64,000 nucleotides of DNA from a virus, in the IMG/VR virus record IMGVR_UViG_3300027763_000050, positions 1 to 64,000 of that record; one strand, given 5' to 3'. The translations under genes and the position numbers were made by a program. A model generated the notes under the pieces. It was not told the DNA's origin and ran no database searches. It saw nothing but the letters and a program-made list of their open reading frames with translations. This document shows positions 3,970 to 38,237 of this stretch, piece after piece. How positions within the stretch are numbered: the first letter of the stretch is position 1; every line of letters starts with the position of its first letter.

Positions 3970-4257
3970 ATGACTGACCATCCAGTCACCCCGCCGCCTG
4001 AGCTTATGGAAAAAACTTTATTTACAGATCTTTTTAAAGCTCTTGGAGGAACTTTTCTGGAAGAAGATAGAGATTCAAATTTCCCTAACGAAAATACAAT
4101 AGATAAAGATCCTTACAAAAATCTGTGTCGGGAGCTTGTTGAGACCTGGGATGAGACTGTAAGGACACCGGGTAGTTTTGATTCACGGCGCATTGAGTTT
4201 TGTGCAAAAGCTGAACGTATTGTTTCTAATGCTCGTGCCCGCTTGGCTGGCTGTTGA
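3970..4257 (+). CDS. PITPPPEL-tag family protein, divergent member, 95 aa
   Basis: I chose the start at ATG 3970 because the sequence around it (ACCAATCAC-ATG-ACTGAC) is shared with two other genes (4284 and, on the other strand, 28519). The protein opens with MTDHPVTPPPEL, a tag I recognise from many small proteins of picocyanobacteria and their viruses. The remainder is acidic and helical and lacks the family's usual RRPKPP tail. No function is known. It is the first of four tandem small genes. Confidence 0.7.
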   Translation: MTDHPVTPPPELMEKTLFTDLFKALGGTFLEEDRDSNFPNENTIDKDPYKNLCRELVETWDETVRTPGSFDSRRIEFCAKAERIVSNARARLAGC

Positions 4258-4283
4258 ATTTAGTAGTCCCGCACACTAATCAC

Positions 4284-4646
4284 ATGACTGATCATCCAAT
4301 CACCCCACCGCCTGAGCTGGTGCAGCAGTTATGCGACAGCGCCGCCCTTTCGCGTAGCTTTAAGAACATCAGCATAAGAGAAGTTGACGTTCTACTTATT
4401 CTGGAGGCCTTTCAAGCTGGCGCCGACCAAGAACTGGATGCGTGTTGTGAGTGGTTTGTCCGGGACTGGACTGACATTGAAACAACAAACAAGCTCCGCG
4501 CCGCCAGACGCCCCAAGCCGCCGACGCTGAAAGAACAGGCAATTAAAGATCTAGACGATCTGGAGGTTAATCTGAAAGATTTTGGGATGGGGTTTGTCCC
4601 TATTACAAACCTTCGCAAAGCCCTGGAGGCATTGCCTAATGACTGA
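4284..4646 (+). CDS. PITPPPEL-tag family protein, 120 aa
   Basis: The protein starts MTDHPITPPPELVQQ and has a Cys-containing helical middle (ELDACCEWFV). The motif AARRPKPPTLKEQA follows, which I associate with the same family. The ATG at 4284 sits in the same upstream context as the gene at 3970. It overlaps the next gene by 8 bases, so the two are probably co-translated. The function is unknown; abundance in cyanobacterial accessory DNA is recalled knowledge, not shown here. Confidence 0.75.
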   Translation: MTDHPITPPPELVQQLCDSAALSRSFKNISIREVDVLLILEAFQAGADQELDACCEWFVRDWTDIETTNKLRAARRPKPPTLKEQAIKDLDDLEVNLKDFGMGFVPITNLRKALEALPND

Positions 4647-4878
4647 CCTATCACCCGCTGCTCAGGCAGTGCTGGATGCTGCTTACAAAGTCCGACCTTG
4701 GATGATCCGCGTAAATAGCGGATATATTGCTGCCGCCGCCCTTCGTGCTGCTGCGGATCAGGCACATCCAAAAGCTCACATTGAAGACATTAATTACGTT
4801 CATCAAAATTATGTTGACGGATGGAAAGATGCTCTTGATGTAATCCTCGCCATTGCCGACGAACTAAAGGCAGTATGA
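4639..4878 (+). CDS. LSPAAQ family protein, 79 aa
   Basis: It begins MTDLSPAAQAVLDAA, followed by an AAALRAAADQ helix and a C-terminal AIADELKAV. This is a small alpha-helical family common in Synechococcus/Cyanobium and their viruses, with no known function. It starts inside the end of the preceding gene. A paralogue lies at 4916-5140 and a probable remnant at 4875-4919. Confidence 0.7.
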   Translation: MTDLSPAAQAVLDAAYKVRPWMIRVNSGYIAAAALRAAADQAHPKAHIEDINYVHQNYVDGWKDALDVILAIADELKAV

Positions 4879-5770: not shown

Positions 5771-5989
5771 GTGGCCGATCCGCCAAGCGCTTCAGAATTA
5801 CTGGCAATGCTCTCAGCACGGGACTTCTTGATAACACTGTCCCAGCCAAGGTTAGTGCCGCGAATTCCCCGTGAAATGAGGGAGGAAATAAAAGCGATTG
5901 CCCGCCGCTACCCAACGTCAGATCGAGTCAAATCCTGGTTCCCCGATGTCTGGGTGCCGGATGGTAGGGATGCAAACAAAACTTCCTAG
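5771..5989 (+). CDS. BPSL0761-family-like phage protein, 72 aa
   Basis: A GTG start directly follows the DUF3310 stop. The segments ARDFLITL, VPRIPREMREE and ARRYPTSDRV match my memory of the small BPSL0761 phage family (helix, PRxPRxxR, then RHYP). Function unknown. A CTAGAATA promoter-like element begins inside the last codon. Confidence 0.55.
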   Translation: MADPPSASELLAMLSARDFLITLSQPRLVPRIPREMREEIKAIARRYPTSDRVKSWFPDVWVPDGRDANKTS

Positions 5990-5993
5990 AATA
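5986..5993 (+). promoter_or_regulatory. CTAGAATA -10-like element
   Basis: This is one of at least seven copies of CTAGAATA or close variants ahead of genes in this window. Here it is 65 bases before the ATG at 6059, a longer leader than at the other copies. Confidence 0.5.
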
Positions 5994-6058
5994 AGTCCAC
6001 GCAAAGTTGTCCGGTTGCGCGCTGGATAGCTTTATCAGAAGACAAAACTAGGAAACCA

Positions 6059-6676
6059 ATGTTTATTCTTGACGGCCGGTCACTGGCGCTTGACACGCCA
6101 TTTACTACGTGGGATGGGACTCAGTATCCAGCGAATTGGCTGAGGCTTGCTTCCCCGGAAGAGCGAAGCAATATTGGGATTTACGAAAGCATTGACCCCA
6201 TTCCCTACGACCAGGCTTTTTATTGGGGCTGGGATAATGACAACAAGTTAATACCTAAAGACCATGCGCAGTTGGTACAGCAATGGGTTGCCACGGTTAA
6301 GCAAACCGCCAACACCCTGCTCGCAGATACTGGCTGGTACATCGAGCGCCTGAACGATCCAAGCTCAGGGAAACCGGTTCCTCAGTCCGTCCTGGATCGT
6401 CGAGCAGAGATTCGCGACCTAAGCAATGCCAAGGAAGACGCCATCGTTGCCACCACCAGCACCGATGAACTGGCGGCCTATGTGCGGAGTTCGGATTTCA
6501 ACACATGGTCAGCTCCTTCTAATGACGCTCTTCCCGGGCTGGGTGGAATCACGGCGGCGGAGGGTATTACTGCGGCGGCCCCCTTGGCTGGCGCGGCCGG
6601 CCCTGACACCATCACGTTTTTCTCAGGCGGGTCAACCTCTTCCGGGGTCTCAACCGTTGACACCGTCCTGGGGTAG
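6059..6676 (+). CDS. Tail fibre assembly/baseplate-type protein, 205 aa
   Basis: It opens with a tail-protein signature: a short beta-rich domain (FTTWDGTQYPANWLRLASPEE), then YDQAFYWG, QTANTLL, and DTGWYIERL. I know this layout from phage tail-fibre assembly or DUF4376-like proteins, including cyanophage ones. The last 60 residues are Gly/Ala/Ser/Thr-rich. It is the last virion-type gene before the recombinase. Confidence 0.55.
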   Translation: MFILDGRSLALDTPFTTWDGTQYPANWLRLASPEERSNIGIYESIDPIPYDQAFYWGWDNDNKLIPKDHAQLVQQWVATVKQTANTLLADTGWYIERLNDPSSGKPVPQSVLDRRAEIRDLSNAKEDAIVATTSTDELAAYVRSSDFNTWSAPSNDALPGLGGITAAEGITAAAPLAGAAGPDTITFFSGGSTSSGVSTVDTVLG

Positions 6677-14660: not shown

Positions 14661-15503
14661 TTAAGCGTTCTTTATGTCGGCTAGAAGCGTCTGGTAGTAA
14701 GCCATGGGGTCTTTTACGGATGGGACCTTTATGCCCTTGAGGTTAGAAATAGCCGAACTCATTGCATCGCCAGTCTCCTCAGCGCTGAGGTATGCCATGT
14801 CGTGGAGATAGTTAATACCCTTGCGTGAATTCTCCTTGTCGTCGTCTGCATCGGCAAGAGTTGCCATTGTTGCCTGATCAGAGGTACCTGGTCGTGATGG
14901 CGGCTTGCTGAGGGCGTCGCTCCAGATCTTGGCTTTACTGGCCGGCGAAGTATCCCTGAATGTTTGAGCTCGATTAACGGCATCGGCATAGCGAGAGTTA
15001 ACGGGGAGCGGTGCTGATGCGGTGCTTGAGGGTGCGGTGCCTGAAGATGTGGCGTCTTTTGGGGTGTAGAACGCCGTGCCTTCGTATGAGTACCCAAAGT
15101 CCTGCCCCGGCTTGCCCTTAAGCCTTGCTATTTCATCTGCGTCAGAGGTAAAGACGTAGTCCCCTTTGATATTCCTGAAGCGTCCAACCGCATTCCGGTT
15201 ATTGGCAGCCTGGGTAAACGCTCTGCCAGTATTCTCCTCTAACGTATATCCGTGCTCAGTAGTGGCCTTATCCCGCTCTTCGTCGCTGGTCGTCAGCAGA
15301 TGTCCACCGGTTTGAGAATTGAATAGGCGGTAGACCTTGGCAGCACCTGAGTTCTCGGGTGAGTCATCAAGAAGATTAAAAGCAGTGCCTTCCTTTTTGA
15401 ATTGCCCTGCCCGTTCAAGAGCCTCCTGTTCCGGGGTATTGGTAGTAATGTGATGCTGACCAGTAGTCGGATTGAAGTAACGAACTGCAGCAGTGCTAGC
15501 CAT
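14661..15503 (-). CDS. DUF5648-repeat protein, 280 aa
   Basis: Three copies of a beta-repeat (VRYFNPTTGQHHITT, VYRLFNSQTGGHLLTT, GRFRNIKGDYVFT), each ending in a Gly-aromatic or Gly-Thr-Ala-Phe step (GTAFNLL, GTAFYTP). They match the DUF5648 repeat found in bacterial surface and extracellular proteins. The C-terminal third is helical. It could be a virion decoration or host-surface-binding protein. It has its own CTAGAAT promoter-like site (15525-15531) and is therefore probably separately expressed. Confidence 0.65.
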   Translation of the reverse strand: MASTAAVRYFNPTTGQHHITTNTPEQEALERAGQFKKEGTAFNLLDDSPENSGAAKVYRLFNSQTGGHLLTTSDEERDKATTEHGYTLEENTGRAFTQAANNRNAVGRFRNIKGDYVFTSDADEIARLKGKPGQDFGYSYEGTAFYTPKDATSSGTAPSSTASAPLPVNSRYADAVNRAQTFRDTSPASKAKIWSDALSKPPSRPGTSDQATMATLADADDDKENSRKGINYLHDMAYLSAEETGDAMSSAISNLKGIKVPSVKDPMAYYQTLLADIKNA

Positions 15504-31181: not shown

Positions 31182-31961
31182 TTAGAAGGTCAACGATTGC
31201 CCAGCCGCAATGACATCAGGGTTGTTTAGTCGGTTCTTTGTGACCAGTTGTTCGACGGTGGTACCAGTGGCGCGGGCTATGTCGGTAAGGGTATCGCCGC
31301 TTCGGACCGTTACTTTGCGCGGCTGGACTGGCGCTGCTGCAACTGGAGCGGGGCTAGGGGAAGCTGCCGGGAACGTATTGAACTGACCGCCAATTCCAAA
31401 TCCCTGCCTGCCTGCCCCTGTAGTTCCAGCCAAAATATCAGGAGAATCTGCGATTGCCCCGACCAAATCGCCGCGAGAAATGGCCTTTTTCGCGGTGTCC
31501 AAGGCCGCCATTACGTCGCCGCCGCTGGCAGCATTGAAGTCGTAGCGCTCTTTAGGGGCTATCTCATAGCCAGTGGGCGTTGACTTGGCCCACATTCGCC
31601 CGGTCACAAGGCGACCAAGAGAGTCAAAGGGGTTTTTAGATTGCGAATAATCCCCGTAGTTGATGGCCGTAAACCCATCCTTGCGAGGTGCCTTGGGATT
31701 AGATTCAGCGCGGTTAATAGCATCGCCCAGGGCTTGACGAGTTGCGGGAAGAAAAGATGAAGGGCTGACCTGCTCTTGCCTGCCGGTTACAGCCCTATAG
31801 GCATTATTGGCAGCATCTAAAGCAATGCTTCCCTTGGAGACCAAGGGATTGGTCGGGGCGATCTTGCCAAATATCTGCCCTGCGAATCTAAGATTACGAA
31901 GAGCTGACTCAGCTCCGGTTGCCTTCCCTGCTGCGTTTAAGAGCGACTCTAGTAAGTTCAT
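31182..31961 (-). CDS. LysM-domain virion/lysis protein, 259 aa
   Basis: The C-terminus is a LysM peptidoglycan-binding module (VRSGDTLTDIARATGTT, then QSLTF as the last strand). The N-terminal 200 residues are helical and Ala-rich, as in internal virion proteins. It probably binds the cell wall during entry or exit. It starts inside the 3' end of a membrane gene. Confidence 0.75.
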   Translation of the reverse strand: MNLLESLLNAAGKATGAESALRNLRFAGQIFGKIAPTNPLVSKGSIALDAANNAYRAVTGRQEQVSPSSFLPATRQALGDAINRAESNPKAPRKDGFTAINYGDYSQSKNPFDSLGRLVTGRMWAKSTPTGYEIAPKERYDFNAASGGDVMAALDTAKKAISRGDLVGAIADSPDILAGTTGAGRQGFGIGGQFNTFPAASPSPAPVAAAPVQPRKVTVRSGDTLTDIARATGTTVEQLVTKNRLNNPDVIAAGQSLTF

Positions 31962-34380: not shown

Positions 34381-34962
34381 TCAAGCTGCTTGATTCTTTT
34401 CGAGCTGCGTGATACGCGCCTCAAAAGCTTCCATGCGTGCGGCAAGAGGATCAACGCGGTTGTGTGTGTATCGATCTATAACTCCGCCATGAAGAGAAAT
34501 GCCTCGTTCAACTCGATCGGCGATAGTCTTAATTGCCTGGTCGCTGCGGGCAAACTCAAACATGAGAGCTCTAAGCACGCCCGCATAATGTTCGCTTCTA
34601 TCTACTGTGGAATCAGGAAAGCCAGTGTCGCCGTAGTTGCCGGTAATTGCTTCGCGAATAAAGTCTCTAAGGGTGTCGATGAACTGGGAATTTTCGAACA
34701 GGCGCCAGGCAGATCGGGAAAAGAAATTTGCGCGTCTCTCCATGGCACCTGCCAGGTCTTCAATCAGATCAGGAAAAAGATCCAAGATGTGATTGGCAAG
34801 ATTCGAACACATGAGATTGCGGGATAACTGTGCAATCTCATCTTGAGAGAGCGGACGATGAAAGCCATGATCCCTGGCTGACTTAATCTCATCTTGGTAA
34901 GCAACAAGCAGCCGATCAAGTTGATAGAGATTGTGTGAAACGTTGACGTTGTCGGTAGTCAT
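34381..34962 (-). CDS. Helical hypothetical protein, 193 aa, next to the E1-like gene
   Basis: ATG 34962 lies two bases after the E1-like stop, so the two are probably co-transcribed. Long helices (YQLDRLLVAYQDEIKSARD, a coiled coil at the end, EAFEARITQLEKN). It could be a partner or substrate of the conjugation cassette, but nothing in it shows this. Confidence 0.6.
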   Translation of the reverse strand: MTTDNVNVSHNLYQLDRLLVAYQDEIKSARDHGFHRPLSQDEIAQLSRNLMCSNLANHILDLFPDLIEDLAGAMERRANFFSRSAWRLFENSQFIDTLRDFIREAITGNYGDTGFPDSTVDRSEHYAGVLRALMFEFARSDQAIKTIADRVERGISLHGGVIDRYTHNRVDPLAARMEAFEARITQLEKNQAA

Positions 34963-34963
34963 G

Positions 34964-35662
34964 TCAGGAAATAGCAAAGGAAAAGGAGCGGCCGTTGAAT
35001 CCCAGTTGGGAGTAGAGATTGTTGAGCTTGTTATCCAGGAAGTTTTGGACAACAAGCAGCGCGCTGGTAGCTGCCAGGGAATTGGCAGCAATTAACTGCG
35101 GGCGCGAAGGTGCGTGTTCCATGCAGCCGCCCGATCTCGGTATCGTGTCCCGAGGTGATGCAAGGTTTTCGCAGGTGAGGCGAGGGTCAATGCCAAAGGT
35201 GGTGTCATCGATCAGACCCCAGAACTGGACCTGACCCTTGATGTCTTCGGTGCCGTCGGAATTGCCGGGACTGATCCAGAGGAAGTTGCGGTTACTGCTG
35301 AGGCGCTCACCCATTACCTCCAGAGTTGCGGCCCGAGTGGCGTCGTTGTCTACGGCAAGAACAATCAAGGGCTGCTGAGCTTGCTGCAACAGACGCCGCA
35401 ACATATTCTTATCTAGGTATTCGGAGTAGGGCTGAGCGTTTAGACCTTGACTCTCAAGGTGCCGAGCCAGGGAGACCGCTTTATTGACGCCGATGTCAGC
35501 GGGGCCAACGATCTGGCGGGTAATGTTCTTGTTTTCGTAGGAGTCGCCGTCAATGATGGCAAACTGCGGCTCCTCGCAGGAATAGGTAAGCAACCGGGCC
35601 AGTGGTGCAGCGAGGTGACCGCCTGTGCCGCCAGCGCCAATCAATAGGCAAGTGTCAATCAT
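34964..35662 (-). CDS. ThiF/E1-like adenylating enzyme (PRTRC-type)
   Basis: Activates a ubiquitin-like protein by adenylating its C-terminal Gly. 232 aa from ATG 35662. Visible motifs: nucleotide-binding GAGGTGG at residues 9-15; the acidic strand and Arg finger IDGDSYENKNITRQ; DIGVNKAVSLA; and AVDNDATRAA, all in E1/ThiF order. A candidate catalytic Cys lies in GGCMEHAPSRP. It is minimal in size, like PRTRC ThiF proteins of plasmids. It overlaps the upstream gene by 8 bases in the same operon as the JAB and Ubl genes. Confidence 0.85.
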   Translation of the reverse strand: MIDTCLLIGAGGTGGHLAAPLARLLTYSCEEPQFAIIDGDSYENKNITRQIVGPADIGVNKAVSLARHLESQGLNAQPYSEYLDKNMLRRLLQQAQQPLIVLAVDNDATRAATLEVMGERLSSNRNFLWISPGNSDGTEDIKGQVQFWGLIDDTTFGIDPRLTCENLASPRDTIPRSGGCMEHAPSRPQLIAANSLAATSALLVVQNFLDNKLNNLYSQLGFNGRSFSFAIS

Positions 35663-36566
35663 TGGGGATCTGTCCGATAAGGGTGTTGCGGTGAATAAAC
35701 CATTGACGTAAAAGAGCATCTGCTTCGGTAATGAAGCCTTCGTTGTTGAACACCGTGGCCCGCTTGACATAGGCCGCAAGCATCCCGCTCTCACCCACGG
35801 TGCCTATGCCGGCAGTGCGTAGCTGACGGAAAGCGTCGCGATGAAGTTGCGGGTGAAGAAGTAGTAAGGCATCTGCGCCGCTGCGATACTCGAAGCTGGG
35901 GTCAGCGGGGACGGATGAAGAAAAAGAATTAATTTCGGAAGCGTTATCCCGGTATTGATCGAGAGAAAGTAAATCGTCGTTTGAAGGTGTGGCAGCAAAC
36001 GTACTTATTGCCTGATCAATTGACGTCGGGAAGTCAGAGCGTGTCCCCCAGCAGACGTAATCATTGTCAGCAAAGCAATTTAGATTTCGCTCCACGCCAG
36101 ACAAGCGAACTTCGCTGTCATCCGCTGAGCTGGTGACGCATTGTAAATATGAGCGTATGTTTGGTTTTCGTTCGCCATCCTCGGGCAATAAGGCTATAAA
36201 TTTATCAGGAAGGAAGACACTGGGCTTGAAATAAAACTCAAAGCAAGTAGGTGCAAGTTTATAGTCTTCGTCAGCATTGTCACTGGAATCGCCAACGTCA
36301 TAGCCTTCCGGGCATTGTTCATTGTAATAACTACTAAAGCCTTCCCGATAAGCGTCACAGCAAGAAGTAGTAGTAATGACGTAACTATTCCCATCGTGAT
36401 CCTGTCCATCATCTACGTGCTCATCAAACCAATAGCGACAACTGCGGCAATTTGAAGAAATAAAATTTTCCTCATCAAAACCCTGACCTAAATGTTGTGC
36501 ATCGGCCCAGCCATCAGGTAGCCAAACCCTGACGATTATGCCGTCATGTTGATGGCTGTAACCCAC
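35655..36566 (-). CDS. Cys-rich protein in the E2-like (PRTRC B) position
   Basis: GTG 36566 lies 10 bases after the JAB stop, giving 303 aa. ATG 36704 would overlap JAB by 128 bases. The N-terminal half holds clustered Cys (SSNCRSCRYWFDEH, TTSCCDAY). A middle section reads FLPDKFIALLPEDGERKP...NCFADNDYVCWGTRSDFP. This recalls PRTRC protein B (prokaryotic E2 family D), where a short NV-x-DG-x-VC-x-G motif precedes a Pro. The order Ubl-JAB-this-ThiF fits PRTRC. Assignment as E2 is inference from position and a weak motif. Confidence 0.5.
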   Translation of the reverse strand: MGYSHQHDGIIVRVWLPDGWADAQHLGQGFDEENFISSNCRSCRYWFDEHVDDGQDHDGNSYVITTTSCCDAYREGFSSYYNEQCPEGYDVGDSSDNADEDYKLAPTCFEFYFKPSVFLPDKFIALLPEDGERKPNIRSYLQCVTSSADDSEVRLSGVERNLNCFADNDYVCWGTRSDFPTSIDQAISTFAATPSNDDLLSLDQYRDNASEINSFSSSVPADPSFEYRSGADALLLLHPQLHRDAFRQLRTAGIGTVGESGMLAAYVKRATVFNNEGFITEADALLRQWFIHRNTLIGQIPND

Positions 36567-36576
36567 CAGGTCGGCG

Positions 36577-37659
36577 TTACTTGGCAGGTGTTCGAGATGT
36601 ACCGGAGGCGGCGCCGAGGGAGAGAGGAGTGATAAATTCAAAATCGTCGGATTCGGCGGCTGATGGATCGAATCCGGTGTGTTGCTCAATGTCGGCAAGG
36701 GCATAGGAAAGCTCGGAGTAGAGATCGCGGAGGGAGTCGTGGTCGCCAGCAGCGGTGAGGTATTGAATGGCGTTAGTAACGTCGTCGATGATGTCGGACA
36801 CTTGCTGGTATGAACTTTTTTGACGCGGCATGTATGGACTCCAATTGCCGCCAAGGTCATTGCCCCAGCCGTCATCCCAGGAGTAGGGGTCCGAAATGCT
36901 GCCGTAGTGGAAATTGGCGCGCTGATCCTTGGCCTCTGTGCCGGACTTGCCAGATGTGATTACGGGCTTGAACAGCGGCCAGACGCCGATCGTTATGGCA
37001 GTCAGTACGTTGGGATGAAATGTGACGCCGTTTACTGGTGTTGTATCAACGACAAGGTTGTGGTCAATGGCGAAGCGCCGTTTGCCCGCTGTAATGGAAG
37101 CAGTAAGTGCGTATGACATTTTCTGGGAGTCGATGCTGCCAACAACAATGTGCAGGCCTGGATCGCCGAGCTCGTATTTGTCATCGGTGCCAGAGAAGAA
37201 AGCCGCCATGGTGTTGTGGCTGTGGGATGAGCCGCAAGGAGTCCAACCATCGGGCGGGTAGCTGGTAACTGTCTCGCCGGTGATGATGTCAATGGCTTTA
37301 TCGAAGCTCTCGACGCGGACACTGGCTGCATCAACTTCTTGAACGGGTACAAGCAGACGGAAGCAAGTGGGATCGCTTTCGCTGCGAAGAATGCGAACAG
37401 AGACCTCGGCCTGACTTGGGACCTTGGTGACGTAATGGAAGGTGAGCTGAATCCAAGCAGCCCAGAGATCGGCTGGAATTCGGGCAATGTTATTGGCGGG
37501 TTCAAACTTCTTGAGGTTCTCATCGGTGATGATTGCGTTGGCGGTAGGGTCATCGACGGGGCTGAGGTATGAGCCCCAGGAGTTAGCGGCAACTTTCCAG
37601 CAGCCACTGCGGTGAGTGCGAAGAACGCTGGGGGAACTGGGTGCGGTGGCTGAAGTCAT
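36577..37659 (-). CDS. JAB/JAMM isopeptidase-like protein (PRTRC A-like), 360 aa
   Basis: The zinc-metalloprotease motif is intact: HSHNTMAAFFSGTDD gives H146-x-H148-x7-S156-x2-D159. An upstream Glu in AEVSVRIL is the likely general base. Such enzymes process ubiquitin-like precursors or remove the conjugate. The N-terminal 80 residues and the C-terminal Trp/Asp-rich segment (DPYSWDDGWGNDLGG) are additional. ATG 37659. It lies between the Ubl and E2-position genes. Confidence 0.8.
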   Translation of the reverse strand: MTSATAPSSPSVLRTHRSGCWKVAANSWGSYLSPVDDPTANAIITDENLKKFEPANNIARIPADLWAAWIQLTFHYVTKVPSQAEVSVRILRSESDPTCFRLLVPVQEVDAASVRVESFDKAIDIITGETVTSYPPDGWTPCGSSHSHNTMAAFFSGTDDKYELGDPGLHIVVGSIDSQKMSYALTASITAGKRRFAIDHNLVVDTTPVNGVTFHPNVLTAITIGVWPLFKPVITSGKSGTEAKDQRANFHYGSISDPYSWDDGWGNDLGGNWSPYMPRQKSSYQQVSDIIDDVTNAIQYLTAAGDHDSLRDLYSELSYALADIEQHTGFDPSAAESDDFEFITPLSLGAASGTSRTPAK

Positions 37660-37709
37660 TGGGATAGAGGAGGAAGTAAGCCCCAGCGGGAGGCCGGGGC
37701 TGGTGACGA

Positions 37710-38237
37710 TCAACCCTTGGCTTCGCTGGTGACTGAAGCGCGGACGATGGTGCCAGGGGCGACAACGGACGAGGGCACCAGGATTTGCCCCTCGGCAACG
37801 AAGCGTGCGCGATTAACGTCAATACCGAGCTCGCCTTCGTAGAGGGAGAAGAGTTCATGGAGGCTTTTGCCGTCAGCGATTGCGGCGGGGACTTCGACAA
37901 GTGCGCCGTCGTTTGCGGTTAGTACAACGGGGGGCTTGGCTGCAGCTGAAAGATTTTCAAAGAAGCTTCCAGATGTGGGGTTGTTATTGGCAGCTTTTGG
38001 TTCGGAGGTAGTGCCGGCGTCGGGCTCGGTGTATGAAGCGTGGCCAACGGTTATAGATTCATAGAAGGTTGCGCCGGCAGTGGCTTCTTCGGTGACGGCA
38101 ACCTTGGAGCCGTTGTCTGCGCTTACTGCGACTGGACTTTCGGCGGGAGTTTCAGGGGGTAAAACAAACTCAAGGGTGGTGACAAGGAACTTGTAAGCGG
38201 ACTTGTAAGCGGATTTAAGAGCGGAAAAGGGAGACAT
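37710..38237 (-). CDS. Ubiquitin-like beta-grasp protein ending in Gly
   Basis: 175 aa. The C-terminal 75 residues (PVVLTANDGALVEVPAAI, LHELFSLYEGEL, VPGTIVRA-like end strands) have the strand-strand-helix-strand order of beta-grasp proteins and finish EAKG, a free Gly as in PRTRC C and other prokaryotic Ubls. An earlier stretch (PVAVSADNGSKVAVTEEA) looks like a degenerate copy of the first hairpin. The N-terminus is helical and basic. It is probably the modifier for the E1 and JAB encoded next to it. Confidence 0.68.
   Translation of the reverse strand: MSPFSALKSAYKSAYKFLVTTLEFVLPPETPAESPVAVSADNGSKVAVTEEATAGATFYESITVGHASYTEPDAGTTSEPKAANNNPTSGSFFENLSAAAKPPVVLTANDGALVEVPAAIADGKSLHELFSLYEGELGIDVNRARFVAEGQILVPSSVVAPGTIVRASVTSEAKG

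Follow-up and report, generated by a model that had tools for sequence, protein, structure and literature searches.

The 64,000-nucleotide stretch analyzed here (the window) comprises positions 1–64,000 of virus record IMGVR_UViG_3300027763_000050 (78,367 bases) and carries four adjacent leftward genes encoding a ubiquitin-like protein (Ubl), a JAMM/JAB metalloprotease (JAB), an E2-like protein, and an E1/ThiF-like adenylating enzyme (E1). All four open reading frames (ORFs) lie on the minus strand in the order Ubl-JAB-E2-E1, as a preliminary description of the sequence had noted, and form the cassette examined below (Table 1). This 78 kb contig comes from a tailed phage that infects cyanobacteria, a relative of Synechococcus phage S-EIV1. 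The record encodes a terminase large subunit, virion structural proteins, and an endolysin, as well as a helicase/primase and an integrase of the serine type; one structural protein shares 46% identity with an S-EIV1 protein, and several further genes match that phage. These genes agree with the earlier view of the cassette as virus-borne and surrounded by phage genes.

Table 1. Positions of the cassette genes and their parts in the window
Feature	Position	Strand	Basis or remark
Ubl, 175 aa	37710..38237	(-)	AlphaFold, Foldseek, family alignment
Beta-grasp domain of Ubl, ~residues 101–175	37713–37937	(-)	C-terminus ...VTSEAKG
N-terminal extension of Ubl, residues 1 to ~95	37950–38237	(-)	Missing in most relatives
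JAMM/JAB metalloprotease, 360 aa from ATG 37659	36577..37659	(-)	Prok-JAB, active-site columns
E2-like protein, Prok-E2_D group, ~328 aa from TTG 36641	35655..36641	(-)	Hidden Markov model (HMM) and hhalign
Four-Cys insert in E2-like protein	36312..36449	(-)	Alignment; CxxC ... C ... CPxG
Candidate catalytic Cys of E2-like protein	36051–36053	(-)	N-x8-C-W-G ... N-x-D-L
E1/ThiF-like adenylating enzyme, 232 aa from ATG 35662	34964..35662	(-)	ThiF, PRTRC_ThiF
Small gene directly downstream of E1	34381..34962	(-)	Candidate fifth cassette member; cluster comparison

The first gene had been described as encoding a beta-grasp protein ending in Gly, and structure prediction confirms this. In the AlphaFold2 model, residues 101–170 form a beta-beta-alpha-beta-beta-beta domain with predicted local distance difference test (pLDDT) scores of 92–97, and a Foldseek search against the PDB returned 37 matches with E<0.001, all to ubiquitin-fold proteins (ubiquitin, SUMO, NEDD8, ISG15, and related or designed ubiquitin folds, some inside larger complexes). 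The -KG at the end of the domain is invariant across the 17 aligned Ubls of the window's group, where it is followed by zero to two variable residues (S, F, LG, VY, AA, or RH). Judged from the alignment, such variable tails are the signature of a ubiquitin-like precursor that would need a protease, and the JAB is the obvious candidate for trimming them. The window Ubl ends in Lys-Gly itself and needs no maturation; its JAB would therefore act as a deconjugase. The N-terminal extension includes a predicted helix at residues 3–21. A second, degenerate beta-grasp repeat in the N-terminus (residues 33–58) was considered and rejected, the resemblance being weak and not significant.

The JAB ORF spans 36577–37713, and alignment with relatives favors the later start given in Table 1. 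The intact HxH-x7-S-x2-D motif reported earlier is part of a full JAMM set (E103, H164-S-H166-x7-S174-x2-D177, ORF numbering), whose columns are kept in 59–62 of 65 relatives. The protein matches Pfam Prok-JAB (E=7e-5), and its best NCBIfam model is PRTRC_A, at 26.2 bits against a cut-off of 101.8. Its long N-terminal region has four residues that are invariant in the viral group (R32, W46, W84, and W87).

The E1 ORF (34964–35794) likewise has a likelier internal start by alignment, and its assignment as a ThiF/E1 enzyme holds: it matches the ThiF Pfam family (E=1.8e-11) and ThiF/MoeB models, and its profile also retrieves the structures of MccB, Uba4, Cap2, and UBA1. The best curated model is PRTRC_ThiF (1e-12), at 47.9 bits against a cut-off of 144.75. 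The adenylation residues sit in conserved alignment columns (GxGGxGG at 53–59, D82, D84, R93, K105, and D149 in ORF numbering), and Cys224 is a candidate thioester cysteine. In a tree of E1s, the window protein falls in a viral-only group of 15 (support 100/97), and plasmid PRTRC-like E1s are placed elsewhere, alongside two viral sequences.

Between these enzymes, the preliminary description had placed a Cys-rich protein in the E2 position. The position stands: by sequence profiles, the middle protein is a divergent member of the Prok-E2_D group in which one cysteine is invariant, and it carries an insert with four further conserved cysteines. The ORF (35655–36875, 406 aa) aligns with relatives from the TTG listed in Table 1. 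A direct Pfam search with the window protein gave no match, and Pfam Prok-E2_D matches 18 of the 37 members of its alignment, the window member not among them. With an independent HMM, built solely from E2s of loci with other gene orders (several with a Pfam Prok-E2_D match), E-values ran from 1e-11 to 1e-4 for the window's close relatives and reached 0.0035 for the window protein, with one or two members weaker; profile–profile comparison of the window-group E2s with other E2_D proteins gave a probability of 97.3% (E=2e-11). Within the motif N ... C-x-G ... N-x-D-L, 53/53 proteins have the first Asn and the Cys, and 51/53 have the second Asn. For the full-length protein, AlphaFold gave a model with a pLDDT of 83.5. 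The insert cysteines (C143, C146, C173, and C188, numbered in the 406-aa ORF) occur without exception in the JAB-E2-E1 group (17/17 proteins), and none was seen in the E2s of the E2-JAB-E1 group described below; we predict that they form a metal-binding element.

Relatives were gathered by profile scans of IMG/VR and by searches locus by locus. Single-protein viral scans were too narrow (no relative for the window E1 and one for the JAB), and profile scans succeeded. At least 13 further viral loci, counted without redundancy, share the order Ubl-JAB-E2-E1, and chance is excluded because the same four reading frames recur there in the same order. We compared the window with 16 other loci of this type, 13 of which yielded a window-type Ubl; the remaining three are L036, whose sequence begins near the JAB gene, and two divergent loci, L014 and L016. 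Four loci (L002, L012, L013, and L043) are S-EIV1-like, with a structural protein 51–73% identical, and others lie on large contigs of 224–284 kb, two of which were searched for psbA/D-type genes and both carry them. The four-gene order is kept across the two groups as neighboring genes shift place: the Gp157 gene and its neighbors flank opposite sides of the cassette in L012/L013 and in the window/L043, so the cassette behaves as a unit. Cassette-bearing contigs range from ∼40 to 284 kb. No cellular relative came up when 84,980 genomes of bacteria and archaea were scanned twice from pattern seeds, which were short and exact and leave absence unproven, and plasmid JAB matches were weak. A search of open-licence papers found no account of a phage Ubl-JAB-E2-E1 cassette.

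A second arrangement is E2-JAB-E1, frequently with a Ubl gene upstream; it is present in many viral contigs, in cyanobacterial plasmids, and in named phages. The Ubls of this arrangement terminate in GTKG or a similar sequence and are encoded singly or as double, triple, five-, or six-fold tandem copies. Polyubiquitin-like examples, with each repeat ending in GTKG, are six nearly identical repeats in L017:1764–2843, five in L050:5063–6169, and three in L003:3295–4086 (VPHD69_0307 of Vibrio phage D69). The 371 kb viral contig L042 has two closely similar Ubl genes (4193–4675 and 5823–6149) upstream of E2-JAB-E1. Other viral loci have the order E1-JAB with a short E1, no E2 being found in them (L052, L057, L060, L068, L069, L071, L075–L077, L082, and L085), and form a separate group in the E1 tree.

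We interpret the cassette as a self-contained phage ubiquitin-like conjugation pathway, with a probability of about 0.7. Sequence and structure prediction supply its foundations, namely the beta-grasp fold, the conserved -KG end, complete active sites in E1 and JAB, an invariant cysteine in the E2, and the conservation of the four genes as a unit, and they bear out the earlier claim that the four proteins belong to ubiquitin-like chemistry. In the proposed pathway, E1 would adenylate the C-terminal glycine of the Ubl, probably with a thioester link, and hand it to the E2_D-like protein at its invariant cysteine; the Ubl would then be conjugated onto lysines of target proteins, and the JAB would trim precursor tails where present and remove the tag. 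Acceptance of the Ubl by the E2_D protein, the formation of conjugates, and their identity are the parts that we infer. The tandem Ubl arrays of distant phage relatives resemble polyubiquitin in their repeat structure, a likeness that we count toward a conjugation pathway.

The preliminary description had suggested that such a system might tag host or virion proteins or counter host ubiquitin-like defenses; replication offers the best pointer to what might be tagged. The cassette shares its leftward region with genes for a helicase/primase, an exonuclease, a single-stranded DNA-binding protein, a DprA-like protein, and Gp157. Phage (or host) DNA-replication and recombination proteins are the leading candidate targets, at odds clearly below even, and the guess is made by analogy because ubiquitin and SUMO modify PCNA. 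A plasmid dnaN is matched by 168 of 72,556 plasmids and the related ThiF by 255; the top-60 lists for the two share 22 accessions where 0.14 would be expected, an overlap inflated by near-duplicate plasmids and by the use of a single plasmid as the source of both queries. By listed coordinates, the distance between ThiF and dnaN is ∼1–6 kb in several cyanobacterial plasmids and tens of kb in other plasmids. dnaN was present in six of six plasmid records examined, a gut phage contig has adjoining JAB, E1, and dnaN genes, and in a Lysinibacillus plasmid ThiF overlaps dnaX. PRTRC-like E1/JAB genes accompanied by an element-encoded sliding clamp (dnaN) or clamp loader, often within a few kb, were seen in plasmids NZ_CP040277, NC_019699, NC_020157, and NZ_MT075580 and in phage contig MT835919 (L004). 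We treat the clamp link as a lead and no more. The fullest form of the proposal is an autonomous, vertically maintained phage pathway with its own tag, E1, E2, and JAB deconjugase, in which the metal-binding element of the E2 possibly stands in for an E3, distant relatives make polyubiquitin-like precursors, and proteins of the replication machinery would be marked during infection; taken whole, it is unlikely.

Several points weigh against these interpretations. Outside plasmids and a few relatives the clamp link is not strong, the overlap between plasmid lists is limited as stated above, and dnaN has no match in the window phage. The most sensitive search found no JAB, E1, E2, or credible Ubl in S-EIV1, and the cassette is therefore accessory. 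Foldseek searches of the E2 model against the PDB and BFVD gave no meaningful match, with no E2 among the PDB matches listed. An Asn (N-x-D-L) occupies the place at which E2s of type 6d, one of the prokaryotic ubiquitin-like operon types predicted in 2006, have an absolutely conserved His downstream of the Cys (Iyer et al. 2006; PMC1779556), and this His was not found. Without a PDB match to an E2, the E2 assignment therefore rests on sequence profiles together with that paper. The literature searched contained no experimental conjugation by an E2_D system.

The same conjugation chemistry could also be turned on competitors, with only the target differing: the Ubl would tag rival-phage or host proteins, for superinfection exclusion or host control. 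Bacterial Bil systems have been reported to tag phage tail proteins, and an accessory, patchy cassette that is absent from S-EIV1 and present across contigs of such different sizes would fit this use, as would a serine integrase, which suggests from gene content that the phage could be temperate. The window E1 domain matches E1-E2 and 6A-MBL defense models, but the E1-E2 models align over the E1 part only, E1 and E2 are separate genes here, none of JAB, Ubl, and E2 has a defense-family match, and the cassette sits among replication genes. We consider this explanation unlikely.

Counter-defense is less probable still. Here the JAB, possibly helped by E1, E2, and Ubl acting as decoys, would strip or jam host ubiquitin-like immune conjugation, such as that by Cap2/Cap3 of CBASS. 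The complete JAB active site is consistent with this, since host conjugates could be substrates for such a protease; however, neither a dedicated -KG Ubl nor a conserved E1-E2 pair would be needed for the task, the presence of a separate tag alongside dedicated E1, E2, and JAB weighs mildly against a purely counter-defensive role, and the missing defense-family matches count here as well. Sulfur transfer, with the Ubl as a ThiS/MoaD/CysO-like carrier trimmed by the JAB and converted by E1 to a thiocarboxylate, is very improbable: JAB, E1-like, and beta-grasp proteins do also occur together in sulfur-assimilation loci (PMC1779556) and ThiF/MoeB models match the E1, but among curated models PRTRC_ThiF fits the E1 best, the last two residues of the Ubl are KG and not GG, every locus of the Ubl-JAB-E2-E1 type has an E2_D partner, no sulfur-metabolism gene was seen among the neighbors scanned, and distant relatives carry polyubiquitin-like arrays.

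Beyond the four genes, the small gene that follows E1 may be a fifth member of the cassette. Its candidate relatives come after E1 in the S-EIV1-like and large-cyanophage groups alike, and the families of the two groups are weakly linked (hhalign 92.7% over 38 columns). Small post-E1 genes were seen in the window, L011, L027, L033, L036–L041, and L045. Elsewhere in the window, a LysM-domain protein is encoded near the cassette in the leftward region (31182–31961), and a DUF5648 protein (Pfam 4e-24) at 14661–15503.

The compact, conserved phage cassette and the related loci of named Vibrio and Bacillus phages offer tractable systems for studying Ubl transfer by E2_D proteins. If such transfer does take place, full ubiquitin-style conjugation would be at work in phages as well as in eukaryotes and bacterial defense systems, and the polyubiquitin-like arrays would strikingly parallel the polyubiquitin genes of eukaryotes.

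Known systems resemble the cassette to different degrees. CBASS type II, 6A-MBL, and Bil are bacterial defense systems. They share with it the logic of E1, E2, and JAB, but the window E2 is of another group, and the fused E2-E1 Cap2 of CBASS type II contrasts with the separate genes found here. Vibrio phage D69 and Bacillus phage KLEB27-3 likewise carry E2_D, JAB, and E1 together, although in the order E2-JAB-E1 and without the four-Cys insert; the Ubl of D69 has three repeats ending in GTKG, and no Ubl was found in KLEB27-3.

The gene order had been likened to the C-A-B-ThiF part of plasmid PRTRC systems, a comparison that did not survive. The components are alike (a C-like Ubl, with Polaromonas C ending in GAKG, an A-like JAB, a B-like E2, and ThiF), but Polaromonas plasmid pPNAP01 runs ParB-E-C-F-B-A-ThiF, so that JAB and E2 are reversed relative to the window, and the window E1 belongs to a separate clade. 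The absence of ParB noted earlier was upheld: TIGR03734 was unmatched in the window virus and 19 related records (0/20), which may be incomplete. A search for PRTRC_E gave no match, nor did its controls. Membership in PRTRC was rejected on gene order, on ParB, and on the PRTRC_A and PRTRC_ThiF cut-offs; the mismatched order and the JAB and E1 scores far below those cut-offs mark the cassette as a lineage of its own, as opposed to a truncated PRTRC locus.

The closest counterpart is operon type 6d of Iyer et al. (PMC1779556), which comprises a Ubl, a JAB, an E1, a Cys-bearing E2, and an alpha-helical protein; in our reading, its parts correspond to those annotated PRTRC. Four components match the window: a small beta-grasp Ubl with a C-terminal Gly, a JAB with an intact motif and a long N-terminal region, a stand-alone E2-like protein with a conserved Cys, and an E1 without a rhodanese domain. 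The JAB is encoded with the E1-like protein in both, only the E2 gene separating them in the window, and the N-terminal domain of the type 6d JAB has a strictly conserved Arg and Trp, for which R32, W46, W84, and W87 of the viral group are at most candidate equivalents. No alpha-helical gene was found between the Ubl and the enzymes in the window, where a small gene follows E1. In contrast to type 6d, the window cassette has the JAB before the E2, a four-Cys insert, and no matching downstream His, and it is virus-borne and forms its own clade. The best reading is that it represents a phage-specific variant of the type 6d operon.

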